Assembly: GCA_026390135.1 (NCBI GenBank)
Contig: JAPLGN010000046.1
Span: forward strand, 1-64,000
Source: Campylobacterales bacterium
Lineage (GTDB): Bacteria > Campylobacterota > Campylobacteria > Campylobacterales > Sulfurimonadaceae
Reading direction: 5' to 3'
Length of the DNA: 64,000 bases
Shown here: positions 2,098 to 22,733 of the stretch, piece by piece
Layout of the letters: the number at the start of each line of letters is the position of its first letter
How positions within the stretch are numbered: the first letter of the stretch is position 1
The notes under the pieces: model-generated
The model's database searches: none
What the model saw: only the letters and a program-made list of their open reading frames with translations
Told to the model about the DNA's origin: nothing
Made by a program: the position numbers and the translations under genes

Positions 2098-3526
2098 TCT
2101 CAGCTCCTCCGAGAATCATACTGTTAGCGGTCATTTTGTCCATCGTTTGTGAGAGTATAGGTAAATCGAAGGTAGGATACGCTCCTAGTATCGCATCAAT
2201 TGCCTCTTCGTAGGTAGATGCACTTTCCAATATCTTCATAACTGAAGAAAGAATCTCCTGCTCTGATGAGCGAGTATCAAGAACTTTACTTTGAGAATCT
2301 AATACGTCGGCAGGCTTTAGTTGCAGTGGAGCTTCTGAGAAGTTTTGTACTACAGGTGGCGTTTGTGGCTGGACAGTATCGATAACCTCAATATCTCCCT
2401 CCTCGAATCCGTAGGCTTTCATATAGTAACTCTTTGTGAACTTAACCCCCGTTTTTGTCAACGTCTCATCACGTTTAGCTAAGGCTTCATCAACGTCTTC
2501 TTCTTCATAGAGGGTAAAGGTTGGAGCTGTTCCACTAAAATTAAGCTCCCATATCCATCCGATTAGCTCGTTGATCGTCCCCTGAACTAGATGCGTATCC
2601 TCAACAATCAGGTCACCTCGTACCTCTTGGTGGGTTTGGCTTGCGGCATAGCTCCCAGTTTTACCGACTTCAGTTGTAAGGGTTTGTCCCAGTACCGCTT
2701 TGGAAATCTCAGAGTTAAAGAACGTTGCCATCTTTTCATAGATATCACCGCTAGATGCTTTACCAGCTGCCTCTTTGATCTCAATACTAGCATCATCCGG
2801 GATAACGGCAATTGCATCTTGGATCATTGCTTCCATATTGTCAGCAAGAGCTTCTGTCTCTTCTTTAGAAGTCCCTCGAGGAGTTTTTCCAATCATAAAC
2901 GGCATTCCGTATTTTTCAGCAAACGTTACCCAAAACTTGATGCCGCCTTTTTTAAAGACTACCGGCCAGAAACATCGAGAGAGGATCTTTTCGCCATAGG
3001 GGTTTTCATACGAGGCTTGATTGCGGGAAAGTAAAAACTTATAGGGCGGTACTAGTTCACCCATTGGAGCCTTACGCGACTTGATCAATAGCTCTCCGGA
3101 TGAGTTAAAGGCAAACCACTCTTTAGGTTTAGATACGACTTTAAGCGGAAGGATAAGACCGTCACGATGTTCCCATACGACCTCCATAACCGAATAACCG
3201 TAAAAGTTAGCGTCGAGAATAGAGCCCATCAATTCAAAAGGGATAACTTTTGTTTTAAAGAGATCCTCGATAATCTTGCTTTGTCGTGTCTTTGCGCTCC
3301 CTCGATCGATTGCCCACTCTTTTGAACGAACACCCGCACGGCGTGATCCCATAACAGAGAACAGATGGCTGTCGCTGGTGAGCTCTTTATAGACACTTAT
3401 CGATTTACCCTGTTTTCGTAAAACGGGATCAGGATCGGGAAGGATATTTAAAAAATTGGTAAATCCGGCTACGTTTTGATGGACAGCCAGTTCATTTAAA
3501 AGATCAGTAGTATTTTTCTTTGCCAT
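2078..3526 (-). CDS. Mu gp29-like portal protein (DUF935)
   Basis: Recognisable DUF935 features (LPDPDPVLRKQGKSISVYKEL...SRRAGVRSKEWAI); gene order 28-29-F. Confidence 0.87.
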   Translation of the reverse strand: MAKKNTTDLLNELAVHQNVAGFTNFLNILPDPDPVLRKQGKSISVYKELTSDSHLFSVMGSRRAGVRSKEWAIDRGSAKTRQSKIIEDLFKTKVIPFELMGSILDANFYGYSVMEVVWEHRDGLILPLKVVSKPKEWFAFNSSGELLIKSRKAPMGELVPPYKFLLSRNQASYENPYGEKILSRCFWPVVFKKGGIKFWVTFAEKYGMPFMIGKTPRGTSKEETEALADNMEAMIQDAIAVIPDDASIEIKEAAGKASSGDIYEKMATFFNSEISKAVLGQTLTTEVGKTGSYAASQTHQEVRGDLIVEDTHLVQGTINELIGWIWELNFSGTAPTFTLYEEEDVDEALAKRDETLTKTGVKFTKSYYMKAYGFEEGDIEVIDTVQPQTPPVVQNFSEAPLQLKPADVLDSQSKVLDTRSSEQEILSSVMKILESASTYEEAIDAILGAYPTFDLPILSQTMDKMTANSMILGGAEIASDQL

Positions 3527-3647
3527 ATTATCTCCTATACGTCGTGTATGGTGTTTAACTTATGTTTAACTCTTACGATAAATGTTTTTCCGATACTTTC
3601 CCTATCTAAACAATAAAATGTCTTGTAGTGGCTTATATGATCGTTTT

Positions 3648-5060
3648 TCATTCATAGCCTTTCATCATGCTGCTCGATTGTCTTCTTGAGCGTGAAGCAA
3701 CATGTATTTCTCCATCACCGCTATCGGCCGCATGAGCACATAATGCGAGAGCGATTCCTCGGTCTCCGTGTCCATCGGTATTGCTCTTCTCTACATCAAA
3801 GCGAATATTTCCTGCGGCTGTTGTCGTTTTTCGGAAGGAATGGAGATCACCACGGGTTGCTTTATCTGCGGGGATAGTAATCGCGGTATCTTCCATTTGT
3901 TCTAACAGCGTGTGCATTAAAACGGATTTGAGCGGTGCCGTGATCATAATCGCTTCGACACGTGAACTTCCAAATTTATCCTGGGCGTTTTCAGCCAACT
4001 GCATACCAAGCCCTGTTGCATCCAAAGCAGCACGTCTCATATTAGGAAGACCCAAGTGGCGATATAAAATTTCTTCTTGTTTTCTAAACGGCGTTTTTTC
4101 CAGTATCACGACACGGACGGTTTCAAGGATATGACCCAGTTTGCGAGAAAGCCATAGAACCGATAAATCTTTTTTACGACCGACGTCGTAGCCTAGATAG
4201 AGTTCACCCTCTGAAGTATCAATGGAGTATCCGGGTTTTGTCATAGTCATAATCGTCCACTTCTTACCCTTATACGTTCCCGTATCGGTATCACTTACAA
4301 ATGCTTCCTGCTCACAGGAGTGGATCAGTTCATAGGATAAAAATGCCGTTGCTTCATCTACGGGTGTACACATATATTCTTGCTGCCATGTATCTTCATC
4401 ACCGACATTGGCATGTTCTTCATCAAGCCATGCCATGCGCTCATCTTGCGTGAGTACTCTTCCCATGATCTTATCGGCAAGACCCTCGTTGACCGCAAGC
4501 TCAATATCCGTAGTGTGGAGTGACCAATTTAAAAGCCCTTTTTTAACATCATCTACAAACTTGAAATACTTATTCCCCTTCCCGTTATAGGTGGAGAGTA
4601 TCCGAAGAGGAAAGCCCCATGTGATAGCGGGTCGTGCTGCTTTCCACATAGCAGCTTGATCTTTATGGAATGCATACTCATCAAGAATGACTTTCCCCCC
4701 TTTAGAACGGAACTGTGTTGGATTAGAGCTAAGAGCATTGATGCGGGTACCGTTGACGAATTGGATGGAGAATGCTTTGATGTCTTTATCACTGTCAATG
4801 ATAATCTCGCCCAGTGCTTTGGCTGCAATATTAAGAGCTTTAGCCCATAACTCGCAATATAAAATATACTCTCTAGCTGCCGTTTCATCCGCTGATGAAA
4901 ACCAAACAGCCGGAACTTTTTTAGCAGCACAATCACGTACATCTTCATACGCTTGAACGTAGGTTGCACCAATACGACGCGATTTTTCCCAAATCTTGAT
5001 ACGGCTGTCATCTTTGAGCCATCGTTGCTGATAAGGGAGAAAGTATTTATTAGGATTCAT
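3648..5060 (-). CDS. Mu gp28-like terminase large subunit
   Basis: FLPYQQRWLKDDSRIKIWEKSRRIGATYVQAYE, VILDEYAFHKD, YLGYDVGRKKDLSVLW motifs. Confidence 0.88.
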   Translation of the reverse strand: MNPNKYFLPYQQRWLKDDSRIKIWEKSRRIGATYVQAYEDVRDCAAKKVPAVWFSSADETAAREYILYCELWAKALNIAAKALGEIIIDSDKDIKAFSIQFVNGTRINALSSNPTQFRSKGGKVILDEYAFHKDQAAMWKAARPAITWGFPLRILSTYNGKGNKYFKFVDDVKKGLLNWSLHTTDIELAVNEGLADKIMGRVLTQDERMAWLDEEHANVGDEDTWQQEYMCTPVDEATAFLSYELIHSCEQEAFVSDTDTGTYKGKKWTIMTMTKPGYSIDTSEGELYLGYDVGRKKDLSVLWLSRKLGHILETVRVVILEKTPFRKQEEILYRHLGLPNMRRAALDATGLGMQLAENAQDKFGSSRVEAIMITAPLKSVLMHTLLEQMEDTAITIPADKATRGDLHSFRKTTTAAGNIRFDVEKSNTDGHGDRGIALALCAHAADSGDGEIHVASRSRRQSSSMMKGYE

Positions 5061-9782: not shown

Positions 9783-10677
9783 AAATATTGTCTTAGTCGG
9801 GTCAGGAGCATTACCGGTTGTCGGTGATGTTGTCGCGACTACTGACCCAGTACTGCTTAGTCCAAAAGTAGCAACAGGATCACTCAATGCTATCGGGTCA
9901 GGTGCATTGGCAAATAATAGCGGATATGTTGATCCTCAAAACATTACAGCTGAGTTCAATATTAATTTAGCTCTACGTTCTCCAGTATCACTTGGAGTAG
10001 CCCCTGAGTCCTCAAAACTGCTCAAACTTGCTGGATTGGTTGAGACACTTACGGCAGGAGTAACTTCTGTGTATAAGCTCGGTGGTATCACTGCAGATGG
10101 TACGGGGCAAGTACAGGTGTATAACGATGGTTTTACTAGACTTGTAACCGGTGCGAGCGCAAATCTTAAAATTAGCGGAAAAATCGGGGAACCTATAAAA
10201 GTAGAGTTTTCGGTAAAAGGGGTAACTATGGCATCAGCATCAGCAGTTGCAAATCCTGCCGTTACTCTTAATACTGGCAATGAAATCATCATGACGAAAG
10301 CTGATACGTTTGTTGTAAATGGAGTAACACTTAGCGTTATGGATTTTGAGCTTGATTTAGCAGGAACTCTCGAGCGATCTTATACTACTGGGACAAACGG
10401 ATTTTATATCTCAAATTTTGCACCAAAACTCTCGATTACTGCAATTAAAACAAAAATAACAGATGAAGCTGCATGGACAGATTTGGCAGCAGGAGGAAAT
10501 AAAGTCATTACGATTACATGCGGTCCTGTAGGAAATCAAATGCTCTTAAATATTCCATACGCATTTGCGAGTGATCTTAGTGAAAACGATGATAAAGGGC
10601 GTGTATCAATGAAGCGCGCATTTAACTGTGAAAATGGCGGTGTTGCAAATAGCAACGTAACCATTACATTGAAGTAA
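9760..10677 (+). CDS. Phage tail tube protein
   Basis: 305 aa, beta-rich, position upstream of tail assembly chaperones and tape measure; no sheath gene. Confidence 0.65.
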   Translation: MALQETLKNIVLVGSGALPVVGDVVATTDPVLLSPKVATGSLNAIGSGALANNSGYVDPQNITAEFNINLALRSPVSLGVAPESSKLLKLAGLVETLTAGVTSVYKLGGITADGTGQVQVYNDGFTRLVTGASANLKISGKIGEPIKVEFSVKGVTMASASAVANPAVTLNTGNEIIMTKADTFVVNGVTLSVMDFELDLAGTLERSYTTGTNGFYISNFAPKLSITAIKTKITDEAAWTDLAAGGNKVITITCGPVGNQMLLNIPYAFASDLSENDDKGRVSMKRAFNCENGGVANSNVTITLK

Positions 10678-10685
10678 GGAATACT

Positions 10686-11153
10686 ATGACTCCAATCTAT
10701 ACCACTCAACCAATTGAAATCATGATTGATGATGAAACCTTCCATGTTGTCATATCAGACCTTAATGCTTCTCAAAAAGAGGAGATCAATAAGTATGCAA
10801 CTGAACTTGAATTTTTAGTGGAATGTATTCGAAAATCATCATCCCTTATGGATGATATTGAAACGAATAGAGAGCTTATTGGCTGTGTTGGAATTCTAGA
10901 AAAAACAAAGTTGCTCTGGGAAAACAAAGATCTGAAAAAACAAATTTCCGAACTTCAAAACACTATTAGGACTTCCAACCAAGATCAAATGATTTCTGAT
11001 TTATTTATGCGACGTCTCGAGCTAACTATCAGCGGTGAAGATAAAGTAAAAATGATGGCAGTAATCAAATCAAAAATGATTCACCCTCAAATTATTATCG
11101 GTGCGATCGGTAAGCAAATTGAAGTGATCAATCAAAAAAAGTTGCTCGCCTAA
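10686..11153 (+). CDS. Tail assembly chaperone, zero-frame (G-like) product
   Basis: Between tail tube and tape measure; contains A_AAA_AAG near its 3' end. Confidence 0.72.
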   Translation: MTPIYTTQPIEIMIDDETFHVVISDLNASQKEEINKYATELEFLVECIRKSSSLMDDIETNRELIGCVGILEKTKLLWENKDLKKQISELQNTIRTSNQDQMISDLFMRRLELTISGEDKVKMMAVIKSKMIHPQIIIGAIGKQIEVINQKKLLA

Positions 11154-11425
11154 TCCGATTCGCAGATGAATACAGTCGTGGAGAATCTTGTTTTAACCTT
11201 GATGGTTACGACAAAAATGATTTTAATGACAGTGATGTCATCTGGCTTGAGGGGCAAGAACCGACGATCGTTTACGGTTGGATGATGGCAATGAAAAGTG
11301 GAATGGCCGGTGTAGAAATTGATTACGATTTTGTAAAAGATTTTTCCAATAAAGAAGGGCTTGATCCTATCGATACCTATGGGCTGTTTCGTCGAATGAC
11401 CGCTGAATTTAATGCTAAAAAATAA
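10686..11425 (+). CDS. Tail assembly chaperone, -1 frameshift (G-T-like) fusion product
   Basis: Slippery heptamer A AAA AAG at 11135-11141; -1 frame open from 11141 to TAA 11423-11425 (VARLIRFADEYSRGESCFNLDGYDKNDFNDSDVIWLEGQEPTIVYGWMMAMKSGMAGVEIDYDFVKDFSNKEGLDPIDTYGLFRRMTAEFNAKK*). Confidence 0.8.
11135..11141 (+). promoter_or_regulatory. Programmed -1 ribosomal frameshift site A_AAA_AAG
   Basis: Zero-frame codons CAA AAA AAG with stop 12 nt downstream and a long open -1 frame. Confidence 0.8.
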
Positions 11426-20437: not shown

Positions 20438-21232
20438 GTGCAATGGAATTTCATGCAGCATCTTAAAGCCCCGTTCGCTTGGATCGGGGGCAAATCAAAA
20501 TTAGCGGACGATATTGTCGCCCAATTCCCTGAACATCGTCTCTATGTTGAAGTATTCGGCGGTGCGCTGAACGTTCTTTATCGTAAGCCTTGTACTGCCA
20601 AACAAGCCGAAGTAGTCAATGATATCAACGGAGAATTGATCAATCTTCACCGTGCTATTCGCACTAATCCTCAATCCCTATCGACGTGCCTAAATCACTT
20701 ACTGATTAGCCGTGAACTCTTCGCTGATATTCTCTCCGGACGAATGAAACCACGTAATAATATCGAGCGTGCTGCTTTCTATTTTTACCTGCTCTCTCAG
20801 AGCTTTGGAGCCAAGGGTACTACGTTCGCAATGAACGCTAAGAGTAGACGTCCAAAAGATATCTACAAAGACTTCGGACAGTGGTCTAAACGGTTGAAAT
20901 TTGTCACGATCGAGAACATGAGCTTTGATAAGCTGATCGCTACCTACGATAAAGAGGATGCGTTCTTTTACTGTGATCCACCATACGTATCGACTGAGAA
21001 GTATTATCAGCATACGGGTGGTTTTGGAGAGGTAGAGCATCGGAAGCTTTCAGAGCTACTTCACGGTATCAAGGGTAAGTTTTTATTGAGCTATAACGAC
21101 TGTGAACTAGTCAGAGAACTATATGCTGATATGAAGATCACGTCCACCAAAGAGATCAATTATACCCTTCGAGGGGCGGGAAGTAAGAAAAGTGTTCGGG
21201 AGGTATTTATTACAAACTATTGGGGGGATTAA
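20438..21232 (+). CDS. Phage-encoded D12-class (Dam-like) DNA adenine methyltransferase
   Basis: FAWIGGKSKLADDIVAQFPEH...YVEVFGGALNVLY and catalytic DPPY; start GTG 20438 or ATG 20453. Confidence 0.88.
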   Translation: MQWNFMQHLKAPFAWIGGKSKLADDIVAQFPEHRLYVEVFGGALNVLYRKPCTAKQAEVVNDINGELINLHRAIRTNPQSLSTCLNHLLISRELFADILSGRMKPRNNIERAAFYFYLLSQSFGAKGTTFAMNAKSRRPKDIYKDFGQWSKRLKFVTIENMSFDKLIATYDKEDAFFYCDPPYVSTEKYYQHTGGFGEVEHRKLSELLHGIKGKFLLSYNDCELVRELYADMKITSTKEINYTLRGAGSKKSVREVFITNYWGD

Positions 21233-21240
21233 TCCCCCCA
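21221..21240. terminator. Perfect 20-bp palindrome between convergent genes (possible bidirectional terminator)
   Basis: TGGGGGGATTAATCCCCCCA is its own reverse complement and contains the dam stop codon. Confidence 0.45.
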
Positions 21241-21243
21241 TTA

Positions 21244-22146
21244 CTAATATACTATTGCGCTTAAATGCTTGCGAAGTCTTTCTTCAACAATATTTTTTCC
21301 ACCTATAGTGTTATCATAAAATAAAGTTCTAAATCCAGATAAATCGAAAGGAAGTTTTTCACGTTTTCTATCACTCAATAAAATGGTGGCTTTGCCAACA
21401 CCATGAGCATATCCAACTTCATAAAATACGTTTGGATTATCCGGGGTAATATCTGCAATAATTAATGTTGACTCATTGATTGACATGGTGATATCATCAA
21501 TAATTAGACCTGATGTGTAATAATCATCTGCCCTGATTACTTCATATCCATATGATTCACAGGTAGGTTTAATCACATCTGCATAAAGTACATTATATTC
21601 ATCAGTAAATTGCATTACTACAAAACATACTGGTTTTGCAGCATCTACTTTAATATTTTTTACTTTTACTTCTCCAATTCCTTGCAAAAACAATCCAATA
21701 GAAGAACGTGAAATGATATAATTCACTGAAGATACTTTCACATCATCTATATATAAGTCCAAGAGTGATCCCTTAACCACCATTTTCATTGTATGCCATT
21801 GTTCAATTGCTATACTACTTCCAAAACCACTCACAGCTTTGTATTCCCATTGCCAATTTGCAACTGTTGCAAATCCATATTTTGAACCAGCTGCATTGAT
21901 ACCAGCGTATAGTTCAATTGGTTGTCCTATATTCAGGCCAATCAAGCAAGCAGCATCTTTACTTTCCATATAAAATTCTAACGATATAGTTCCTTTTTCA
22001 AATTCCATATTTGATCTTATAAATGAGTAAGGTGGCTGTCCGTTTGGATAATGTTCGTTAGGAGGAAGTGGCATAGATGAAAGTGTAATGATGCCATTAT
22101 CAATTTTTATATCCCCCATTATTGGTATCCAATGCCCTTCTTTCAT
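21244..22146 (-). CDS. Prophage right-end cargo protein: ConA/LamG-like N-terminal domain plus nucleoside 2-deoxyribosyltransferase/TIR-like C-terminal domain
   Basis: N-term QWHTMKMVVKGSLLDLYIDDVKV; C-term CFVVMQFTDEYNVLYADVIKPTCESYGYEVIRADDYY...IADITPDNPNVFYEVGYAHGVGKATILLSDRKREKLPFDLSGFRTLFYDN. Confidence 0.65.
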   Translation of the reverse strand: MKEGHWIPIMGDIKIDNGIITLSSMPLPPNEHYPNGQPPYSFIRSNMEFEKGTISLEFYMESKDAACLIGLNIGQPIELYAGINAAGSKYGFATVANWQWEYKAVSGFGSSIAIEQWHTMKMVVKGSLLDLYIDDVKVSSVNYIISRSSIGLFLQGIGEVKVKNIKVDAAKPVCFVVMQFTDEYNVLYADVIKPTCESYGYEVIRADDYYTSGLIIDDITMSINESTLIIADITPDNPNVFYEVGYAHGVGKATILLSDRKREKLPFDLSGFRTLFYDNTIGGKNIVEERLRKHLSAIVY

Positions 22147-22200
22147 GCTGACTCCTTATAGATAATTATGAATACAAAGTTTATCAGAAAGTTAAATGTT

Positions 22201-22528
22201 TTCACATATTTTTTGAGTTTTTGCACTATTTGAGTTTAAAATATAAGTTATTACTTATAATTGATGGATATTGCAGTTATTTATATTTGAATTTGAAATG
22301 ATAGTAATTTGGTCACATGTGGGTTAAAAAAGGAGCGTTACTATCATTTTAAATTCAAATTACTATCATTTTTAAATCGGTTGTACAGTTTTCTTGCAAT
22401 ATATGGCGTAATGCAGTTATCTATAAAAAGTTAAACAAATTCGCGTATTATTTTGAAAAAGTGTTTAACTTCCTCACGTAATTCACGTATTTTTTGGGAA
22501 ATTTTCGCGTATTTTTTGGGTTCTTACA
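22201..22528. repeat. Mu-type right end: four direct copies of a candidate transposase-binding repeat
   Basis: TTCACATATTTTTTGAGTTTTTGCAC (22201), TTCGCGTATTATTTTG (22440), TTCACGTATTTTTTGGG (22482), TTCGCGTATTTTTTGGGTTCTTACAC (22504); last two spaced 22 bp. Confidence 0.65.
22285..22373. repeat. Long imperfect inverted repeat plus direct repeat
   Basis: ATTTGAATTTGAAATGATAGTAA (22285-22307) vs TTACTATCATTTTAAATTCAAAT (22338-22360), one mismatch; TTACTATCATTTT repeated at 22360. Confidence 0.8.
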
Positions 22529-22733
22529 CGTTCAAATGCTAAACAGCGGAACGATGAAAATAACCGATATATCTCGGCTCATGGGTCACAATTCGACACA
22601 AATGCTTTTGACACGATATGCAAAATTTATTAAGTCAGAAGAGATAAAAATCGAAGAAAAATTTGATTTGTTTGGGCTCAAAACGGGCACAAATGAAAAA
22701 GAAGTTAAAGGGAAAGCCCTGAAAATAGGGTAA
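22529..22733 (+). pseudogene. C-terminal remnant of a tyrosine recombinase/integrase
   Basis: VQMLNSGTMKITDISRLMGHNSTQMLLTRYAKFIK matches the C-terminal H-x-x-R-LGH...Y region; no N-terminal part present. Confidence 0.75.

Follow-up and report, generated by a model that had tools for sequence, protein, structure and literature searches.

The closest described relatives of the protein analyzed here belong to the DrHyd superfamily (PF05014), which includes DNPH1/Rcl, the nucleoside 2-deoxyribosyltransferases (NDTs) and the CMP hydrolase MilB. Its C-terminal domain shares their fold and glutamate nucleophile motif, and is linked to them by both profile and structure matches. Unlike these enzymes, the 300-aa protein scores below the Pfam gathering threshold and carries an extra N-terminal ConA domain. 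A second point of reference is PrrC, the anticodon nuclease encoded among hsdM, hsdS and hsdR in EcoprrI, which comes into play as a back-up effector if restriction is blocked or overwhelmed.

In conflict systems, DrHyd domains are reported to act as NADase effectors or as ADP-ribosyl cyclases (ARCs), and the viral DrHyd proteins have been stated to be only ARC-like (PMC9503650). Prophage and satellite hotspots for TIR-type effectors are also on record (PMC9122126). SpbK of ICEBs1, the TIR-NLR of P4 satellites and DSR2, which use TIR or SIR2 NADases, are often found on mobile elements and combine a sensor and an NAD+-cleaving effector in one polypeptide (PMC9122126, PMC12847820). In the protein described here, a proposed ConA-sandwich sensor is joined to a DrHyd enzyme rather than to TIR or SIR2. 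We found no description of a ConA-like plus DrHyd/TIR architecture in defense in the literature searched, which took in few subscription journals, so that a prior mention is possible.

Gene and prophage setting

The window, by which we mean the whole stretch of 64,000 nucleotides analyzed, contains phage late genes, a D12-class adenine methylase gene and flagellar/ftsK chromosome genes as neighbors of the gene under study (Table 1). The ORF is a real gene and lies exactly where the initial annotation had placed it, at 21244-22146 on the minus strand, with an ATG start that follows an AAGGAG ribosome-binding site at a distance of 4-5 nt. Within the prophage it forms a transcription unit of its own, and the terminator-like hairpin stands at the 3' end of both convergent genes, the methylase gene and the 300-aa ORF. 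The gene has a GC content of 0.33, lower than that of the prophage (0.41) and of the chromosome (0.40), and there is a single copy in its own genome (1.87 Mb, 82% complete).

Table 1. Features of the gene and its immediate surroundings
Feature	Position	Strand	Description
D12-class adenine methylase	20438..21232	(+)	Last late-side prophage gene, tail-to-tail neighbor; Pfam PF02086, 3.9e-31; phrog_56
Near-palindromic hairpin TGGGGGGATTAATCCCCCCA	21221..21240	(.)	Terminator-like; between the convergent methylase and 300-aa genes
CDS	21244..22146	(-)	300 aa; ConA-like beta-sandwich fused to DrHyd/NDT-like N-glycosidase domain (predicted)
C-terminal domain, residues 172-300	21247..21633	(-)	DNPH1/NDT-type Rossmannoid (DrHyd); proposed effector
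Glu243 codon (NPNVFYE243VGYAHG)	21418..21420	(-)	Counterpart of the catalytic nucleophile in DNPH1 (E104) and in NDT; invariant 31/31
Asp218 codon	21493..21495	(-)	Candidate acid/base; Asp 30/31, Glu 1; one position off DNPH1 D80 in an ungapped sequence alignment
N-terminal domain, residues 1-169	21640..22146	(-)	CBM66/levanase-type ConA-like beta-sandwich; proposed sensor
Ribosome-binding site AAGGAG	22152..22157	(-)	Directly before the ATG; read from sequence
TTCrCGTATTTTTTGGG-like repeat, four copies (22201, 22440, 22482, 22504)	22201..22520	(+)	Probable transposase-binding end sites, Mu-like phage

Upstream phage head genes encode a terminase, a portal, a MuF-like head protein and a protease, with capsid E and a tape measure (Pfam). 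These are followed by a spanin/endolysin-like lysis block, read from the translations, and then by the D12 methylase gene. Two positional claims had been made for the 300-aa gene, that it is transcribed opposite to the late genes and that it adjoins transposase end sites. The first holds, the gene being tail-to-tail with the methylase gene, and the second is consistent with the repeats found in the 375 bp that separate the gene from the phage end. The two best repeat copies have no match with fewer than two mismatches elsewhere in the genome. We regard the adjacent methylase as context, and any functional coupling to the 300-aa protein is putative at most.

The region is consistent with a Mu-like prophage whose right end lies within an integrase gene, and the prophage seems to be inserted in the integrase gene of another element. 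A tyrosine-recombinase-like C-terminal fragment (22494-22733, plus strand), recognized by eye, lies right after the prophage end repeats; a Pfam scan of this fragment gave no match. The contig does not reach the left end of the prophage, which was not located elsewhere in the genome either. A search for MuA (PF09299) in the fragmentary assembly gave no match, and neither did a control search.

Domain architecture

The AlphaFold model built with the family alignment (mean pLDDT 86.7, pTM 0.82) has strands from residue 6 to 169 and an alternating alpha/beta domain from residue 173. In Foldseek, the N-terminal half matches the CBM66 domain of Bacillus levanase (4b1m/4azz; E 2.5e-10, TMt 0.73-0.78). 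The C-terminal half, of which a separate AlphaFold model was made (pLDDT 83), is closest to DNPH1 of human and rat (E 1.6e-6, TM 0.73), with NDTs next in the list. Pfam gives sub-threshold matches to 3keto-disac_hyd at the N-terminus (E 4.8e-5) and to Nuc_deoxyrib_tr (PF05014; E 0.0012, 19.5 bits versus a gathering score of 28.8), and the latter family is matched at E<0.01 by 23 of 24 family members. An NCBIfam scan of the 300-aa protein returned no family. The structural comparison and the sub-threshold Pfam matches thus bear out the two-domain architecture, ConA-like plus deoxyribosyltransferase-like, that had been proposed for the protein.

The C-terminal domain had been described as deoxyribosyltransferase/TIR-like, a description that can be refined: the domain is closer to DNPH1/NDT, and its likeness to TIR is distant. 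Among PDB sequences, a profile search of the domain matches DNPH1 best (E 0.003), and hhalign favors NDT over the CAP12-type TIR (1.4e-6 versus 2.5e-4). Because Foldseek, the PDB profile search and hhalign agree, we place the enzyme half with DrHyd and not with classical TIR. Bacterial TIR and CAP12-Pycsar TIR effectors (PF10137; PDLC00733) have in common with it an NV-x-xE-x-G motif followed by a P-x-D-[LI] motif. The PADLOC TIR effector profile PDLC00733 matches at 7.5e-16, and all 24 members of family alignment A1 match that model. The PF10137 model of CAP12/Pycsar TIR, by comparison, scores 15.3 bits against a cut-off of 24.7, and in contrast to CAP12-Pycsar effectors the 300-aa gene has no cyclase or STING partner. 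CBASS, considered for the PDLC00733 match, was rejected, as no cyclase (CD-NTase or pyrimidine cyclase) was found among neighbors or family matches.

The N-terminal domain has its fold in common with the ConA-like domains of CBM66 and DUF1080 (3-keto-disaccharide hydrolase), at about 14% identity. It differs from them in that no secretion signal is evident by eye and in being the partner of an enzyme expected to act intracellularly.

Catalytic residues and conservation

The C-terminal motifs singled out in the initial annotation, CFVVMQF and IADITPDNPNVFYEVGYAHG, occur in the protein, and the putative catalytic glutamate expected there, E243, is indeed conserved in every homologue compared and aligned with the glutamates of DNPH1 and NDT. 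The DNPH1 nucleophile is E104 (PMC10603095). Also invariant in 31/31 homologues are R205, D207, N237, N239, Y242, H248, P266-F267-D268 and R273. The C-terminal domain is probably an N-glycosidase that cuts NAD+ or nucleotides.

The choice between these substrates is hinted at by one residue. Judging from motifs, the invariant Phe175 on strand 1 of the C-terminal domain probably takes the place of DNPH1 Tyr24 and of the corresponding NDT tyrosine. NADase TIRs have Phe or Ala at the strand-1 position (PMC11204291), and Phe175 is the sole hint for NAD+ over nucleoside monophosphates. A point against NAD+ is that DNPH1, the closest protein of solved structure, has deoxynucleotide monophosphates as its substrates.

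The two halves of the protein are conserved very differently, with a mean pairwise identity of 59% for the enzyme half and 22% for the sandwich half. This asymmetry is expected if the enzyme chemistry is fixed while the sandwich tracks changing ligands, although weaker constraint on the sandwich would give the same result. Only three glycines, which are scattered, are near-invariant in the beta-sandwich, and its ligand site is putative.

Family and distribution

Full-length homologues with the same architecture are found in Pseudomonadota, Thermodesulfobacteriota, Bacteroidota, Bacillota, Nitrospinota and Omnitrophota, at 31-56% identity across several phyla, far beyond chance. About nine viral contigs also carry a homologue. 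The sample comes from pattern-seeded scans with one genome per species, and its counts are not exhaustive. The architecture is rare, patchy and sporadic: it occurs in 1 of 398 sampled genomes of its own phylum, in none of 9 sampled congeners, and in 3/392, 2/395 and 2/369 genomes of the classes to which three homologue-bearing genomes belong, each count including that genome. What emerges is a family that crosses phylum boundaries and keeps its sensor-like/effector-like layout fixed; phages have acquired it repeatedly, and Bacillota incorporate it into their type I restriction operons.

Some copies are broken. In the Bacillota locus L025, a second, partial family copy (10615-11202) lies shortly downstream of the first, past an AlbA_2-like ORF, which suggests duplication and decay. 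Frame-disrupted copies in three other loci (L009, L026, L043) are consistent with frequent loss.

Defense and phage neighborhoods

In Bacillota, seven of eight homologues are inside type I restriction-modification (R-M) operons (HsdM/HsdS/HsdR), either between hsdS and hsdR (L017, L018, L022, L024) or after hsdR (L014, L015, L020). The eighth (L025) follows a DUF1156 methyltransferase/PLD-helicase pair. These eight loci represent about three or four tree lineages, not eight independent events, and the R-M association is seen in Bacillota only. PrrC is likewise an accessory effector gene among hsdM, hsdS and hsdR. It belongs to another enzyme class, however, and the present family also occurs as stand-alone phage cargo.

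Outside Bacillota, the Omnitrophota homologue (L019) abuts an AbiL pair, with AbiLi/PDC-M38 as neighbors, and a Saprospiraceae homologue has an EAD11 protein upstream. When neighbor ORFs were clustered across loci, most of what was recovered in Bacillota were R-M subunits, and outside Bacillota no partner was widely shared. The defense-island association anticipated for homologues is found in part. It is present at 8/8 Bacillota loci and at L019 (type I R-M, DUF1156/PLD-helicase, AbiL), counts made without a random-gene control, and it does not extend throughout the other phyla; homologues such as L003, L007 and L013, Bacteroidota and Pseudomonadota among them, stand alone among housekeeping genes with no recognized defense gene.

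The proposed location of the window's gene as prophage cargo also holds, and homologues recur as such. Phage copies fall in at least five tree branches and occupy differing cargo positions. In P2-like elements the gene lies between gpS and gpV (L076, L080) or after the gpD tail gene (L079, L081), and elsewhere it adjoins a methylase gene (L041) or is found close to terminase/HNH genes (L077) or to an integrase gene (L004). Its GC content is below that of the surroundings in 8/8 phage or integrase loci measured. A tRNA attachment site suspected by eye in L041 was discarded, as ARAGORN found none there. In L076, the P2-like cargo slot is shared with a 407-aa protein (3187-4410, minus strand) that has no PHROG match and is possibly a defense gene.

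Proposed function and alternatives

Because relatives recur in unrelated phages and in restriction-enzyme operons, the architecture probably defines an unstudied family of antiphage defense proteins. With moderate confidence, we read the window's gene as a single-gene, prophage-borne lysogenic-conversion factor, a NADase or nucleotidase that acts in abortive infection and has a divergent beta-sandwich as its sensor. The architecture, conservation, mobility and defense context on which this reading draws are observed directly. Counting against it are the one-residue offset between the DNPH1 general-acid Asp and D218, the homologues in housekeeping contexts and the restriction of the R-M link to Bacillota.

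The mechanism we propose combines predicted ConA-like sensing, N-glycosidase activity, NAD+ as substrate and abortive infection. The protein would stay inactive until an infection-specific ligand, which may be a phage protein or a modified nucleic acid or glycan, binds to the ConA-like domain. The DrHyd domain would then hydrolyze NAD+ (most likely) or a nucleotide via a covalent sugar-Glu243 intermediate. The resulting depletion would stop phage production and so protect the lysogen from other phages. Where it is encoded in a type I R-M operon, the protein may be a PrrC-like back-up effector, called into action once restriction is blocked or overwhelmed.

A more specific version, which we consider rather unlikely as it stands, makes the protein an intracellular pattern-recognition receptor of lectin fold. 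The ConA-like domain would bind either a phage protein or a glycan-like mark specific to phages, such as glycosylated or hypermodified DNA that escapes type I restriction, and would directly switch on the DrHyd NADase or nucleotidase. The protein would thus be a fail-safe of R-M operons against modified phages and a stand-alone exclusion gene of prophages.

If active, the family would extend the known triggers of NAD+- or nucleotide-depleting immunity by a ConA/lectin-fold sensor, and would explain one kind of accessory gene in type I R-M loci. As a one-gene system, it would be easy to test. If it is a NADase, it would be an exception to the ARC-only viral DrHyd proteins.

That statement about viral DrHyd also raises an alternative. 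DrHyd includes ADP-ribosyl cyclases, and the viral members noted in the survey that says so are all predicted ARCs (PMC9503650). The C-terminal domain could make or exchange a nucleotide, such as cyclic ADP-ribose, that activates a separate effector encoded elsewhere in the genome, as do ThsB in Thoeris and ARC-type DrHyd. Against such a signal generator, we found no conserved receptor or effector partner beside the gene across loci by neighbor-ORF clustering, and the gene stands by itself in the prophage. We judge this reading to be unlikely.

The remaining readings are less probable still. Carriage of the family by phages would suit a counter-defense enzyme that destroys a nucleotide signal or base of host immunity during the phage's own infection, and other phage enzymes of nucleotide chemistry do serve counter-defense. 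This role would be senseless in the R-M operons and beside the Abi genes where this family, widespread outside phages, is found, and the window's gene is a separate unit transcribed against the late genes, which together make the idea quite improbable.

A phage enzyme for nucleotide salvage, sanitation or base modification, for example one linked to the adenine methylase, would account for DNPH1, a nucleotide-pool sanitizer, and NDT being the closest solved structures, and for the methylase gene adjoining the gene both here and in L041. Neither the fusion to a lectin-like domain that diverges quickly nor the presence inside R-M operons is in keeping with salvage. Although the methylase and 300-aa genes keep the same order in L041, the two methylases share only 30% identity, and no methylase is seen beside the gene in the rest of the listed phage loci, read by eye; the pair as a fixed cassette is unproven, and we give this family of explanations little credence.

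It is similarly doubtful that the protein is neutral cargo, a catalytically inactive nucleotide sensor or decoy of the kind known in the TIR/DrHyd/SLOG class (PMC9503650), given that the nucleophile glutamate and the polar residues surrounding it are invariant. A toxin-antitoxin pair was rejected, since the ORF has no small gene next to it as a partner and none is widely conserved across loci.

The enzyme domain in other contexts

Proteins of Firmicutes temperate phages that are DrHyd/TIR-like (Javan454_0007, phiEf11_0065 and proteins of S. aureus phages) share the core of the C-terminal domain at 27-39% identity. The match spans only the C-terminal 27-47% of the query, and no ConA-like N-terminus was matched in them. 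In Streptococcus phage Javan454, the gene is in the lysogeny region between the antirepressor and repressor/integrase genes; in Enterococcus phage phiEf11, it is at the end of the record. The two (L100, L101) represent a related cargo family. The enzyme domain also occurs in other protein contexts, with long C-terminal extensions or a receiver-like N-terminus (L027, L029-L034, L037), which portrays it as a modular effector.
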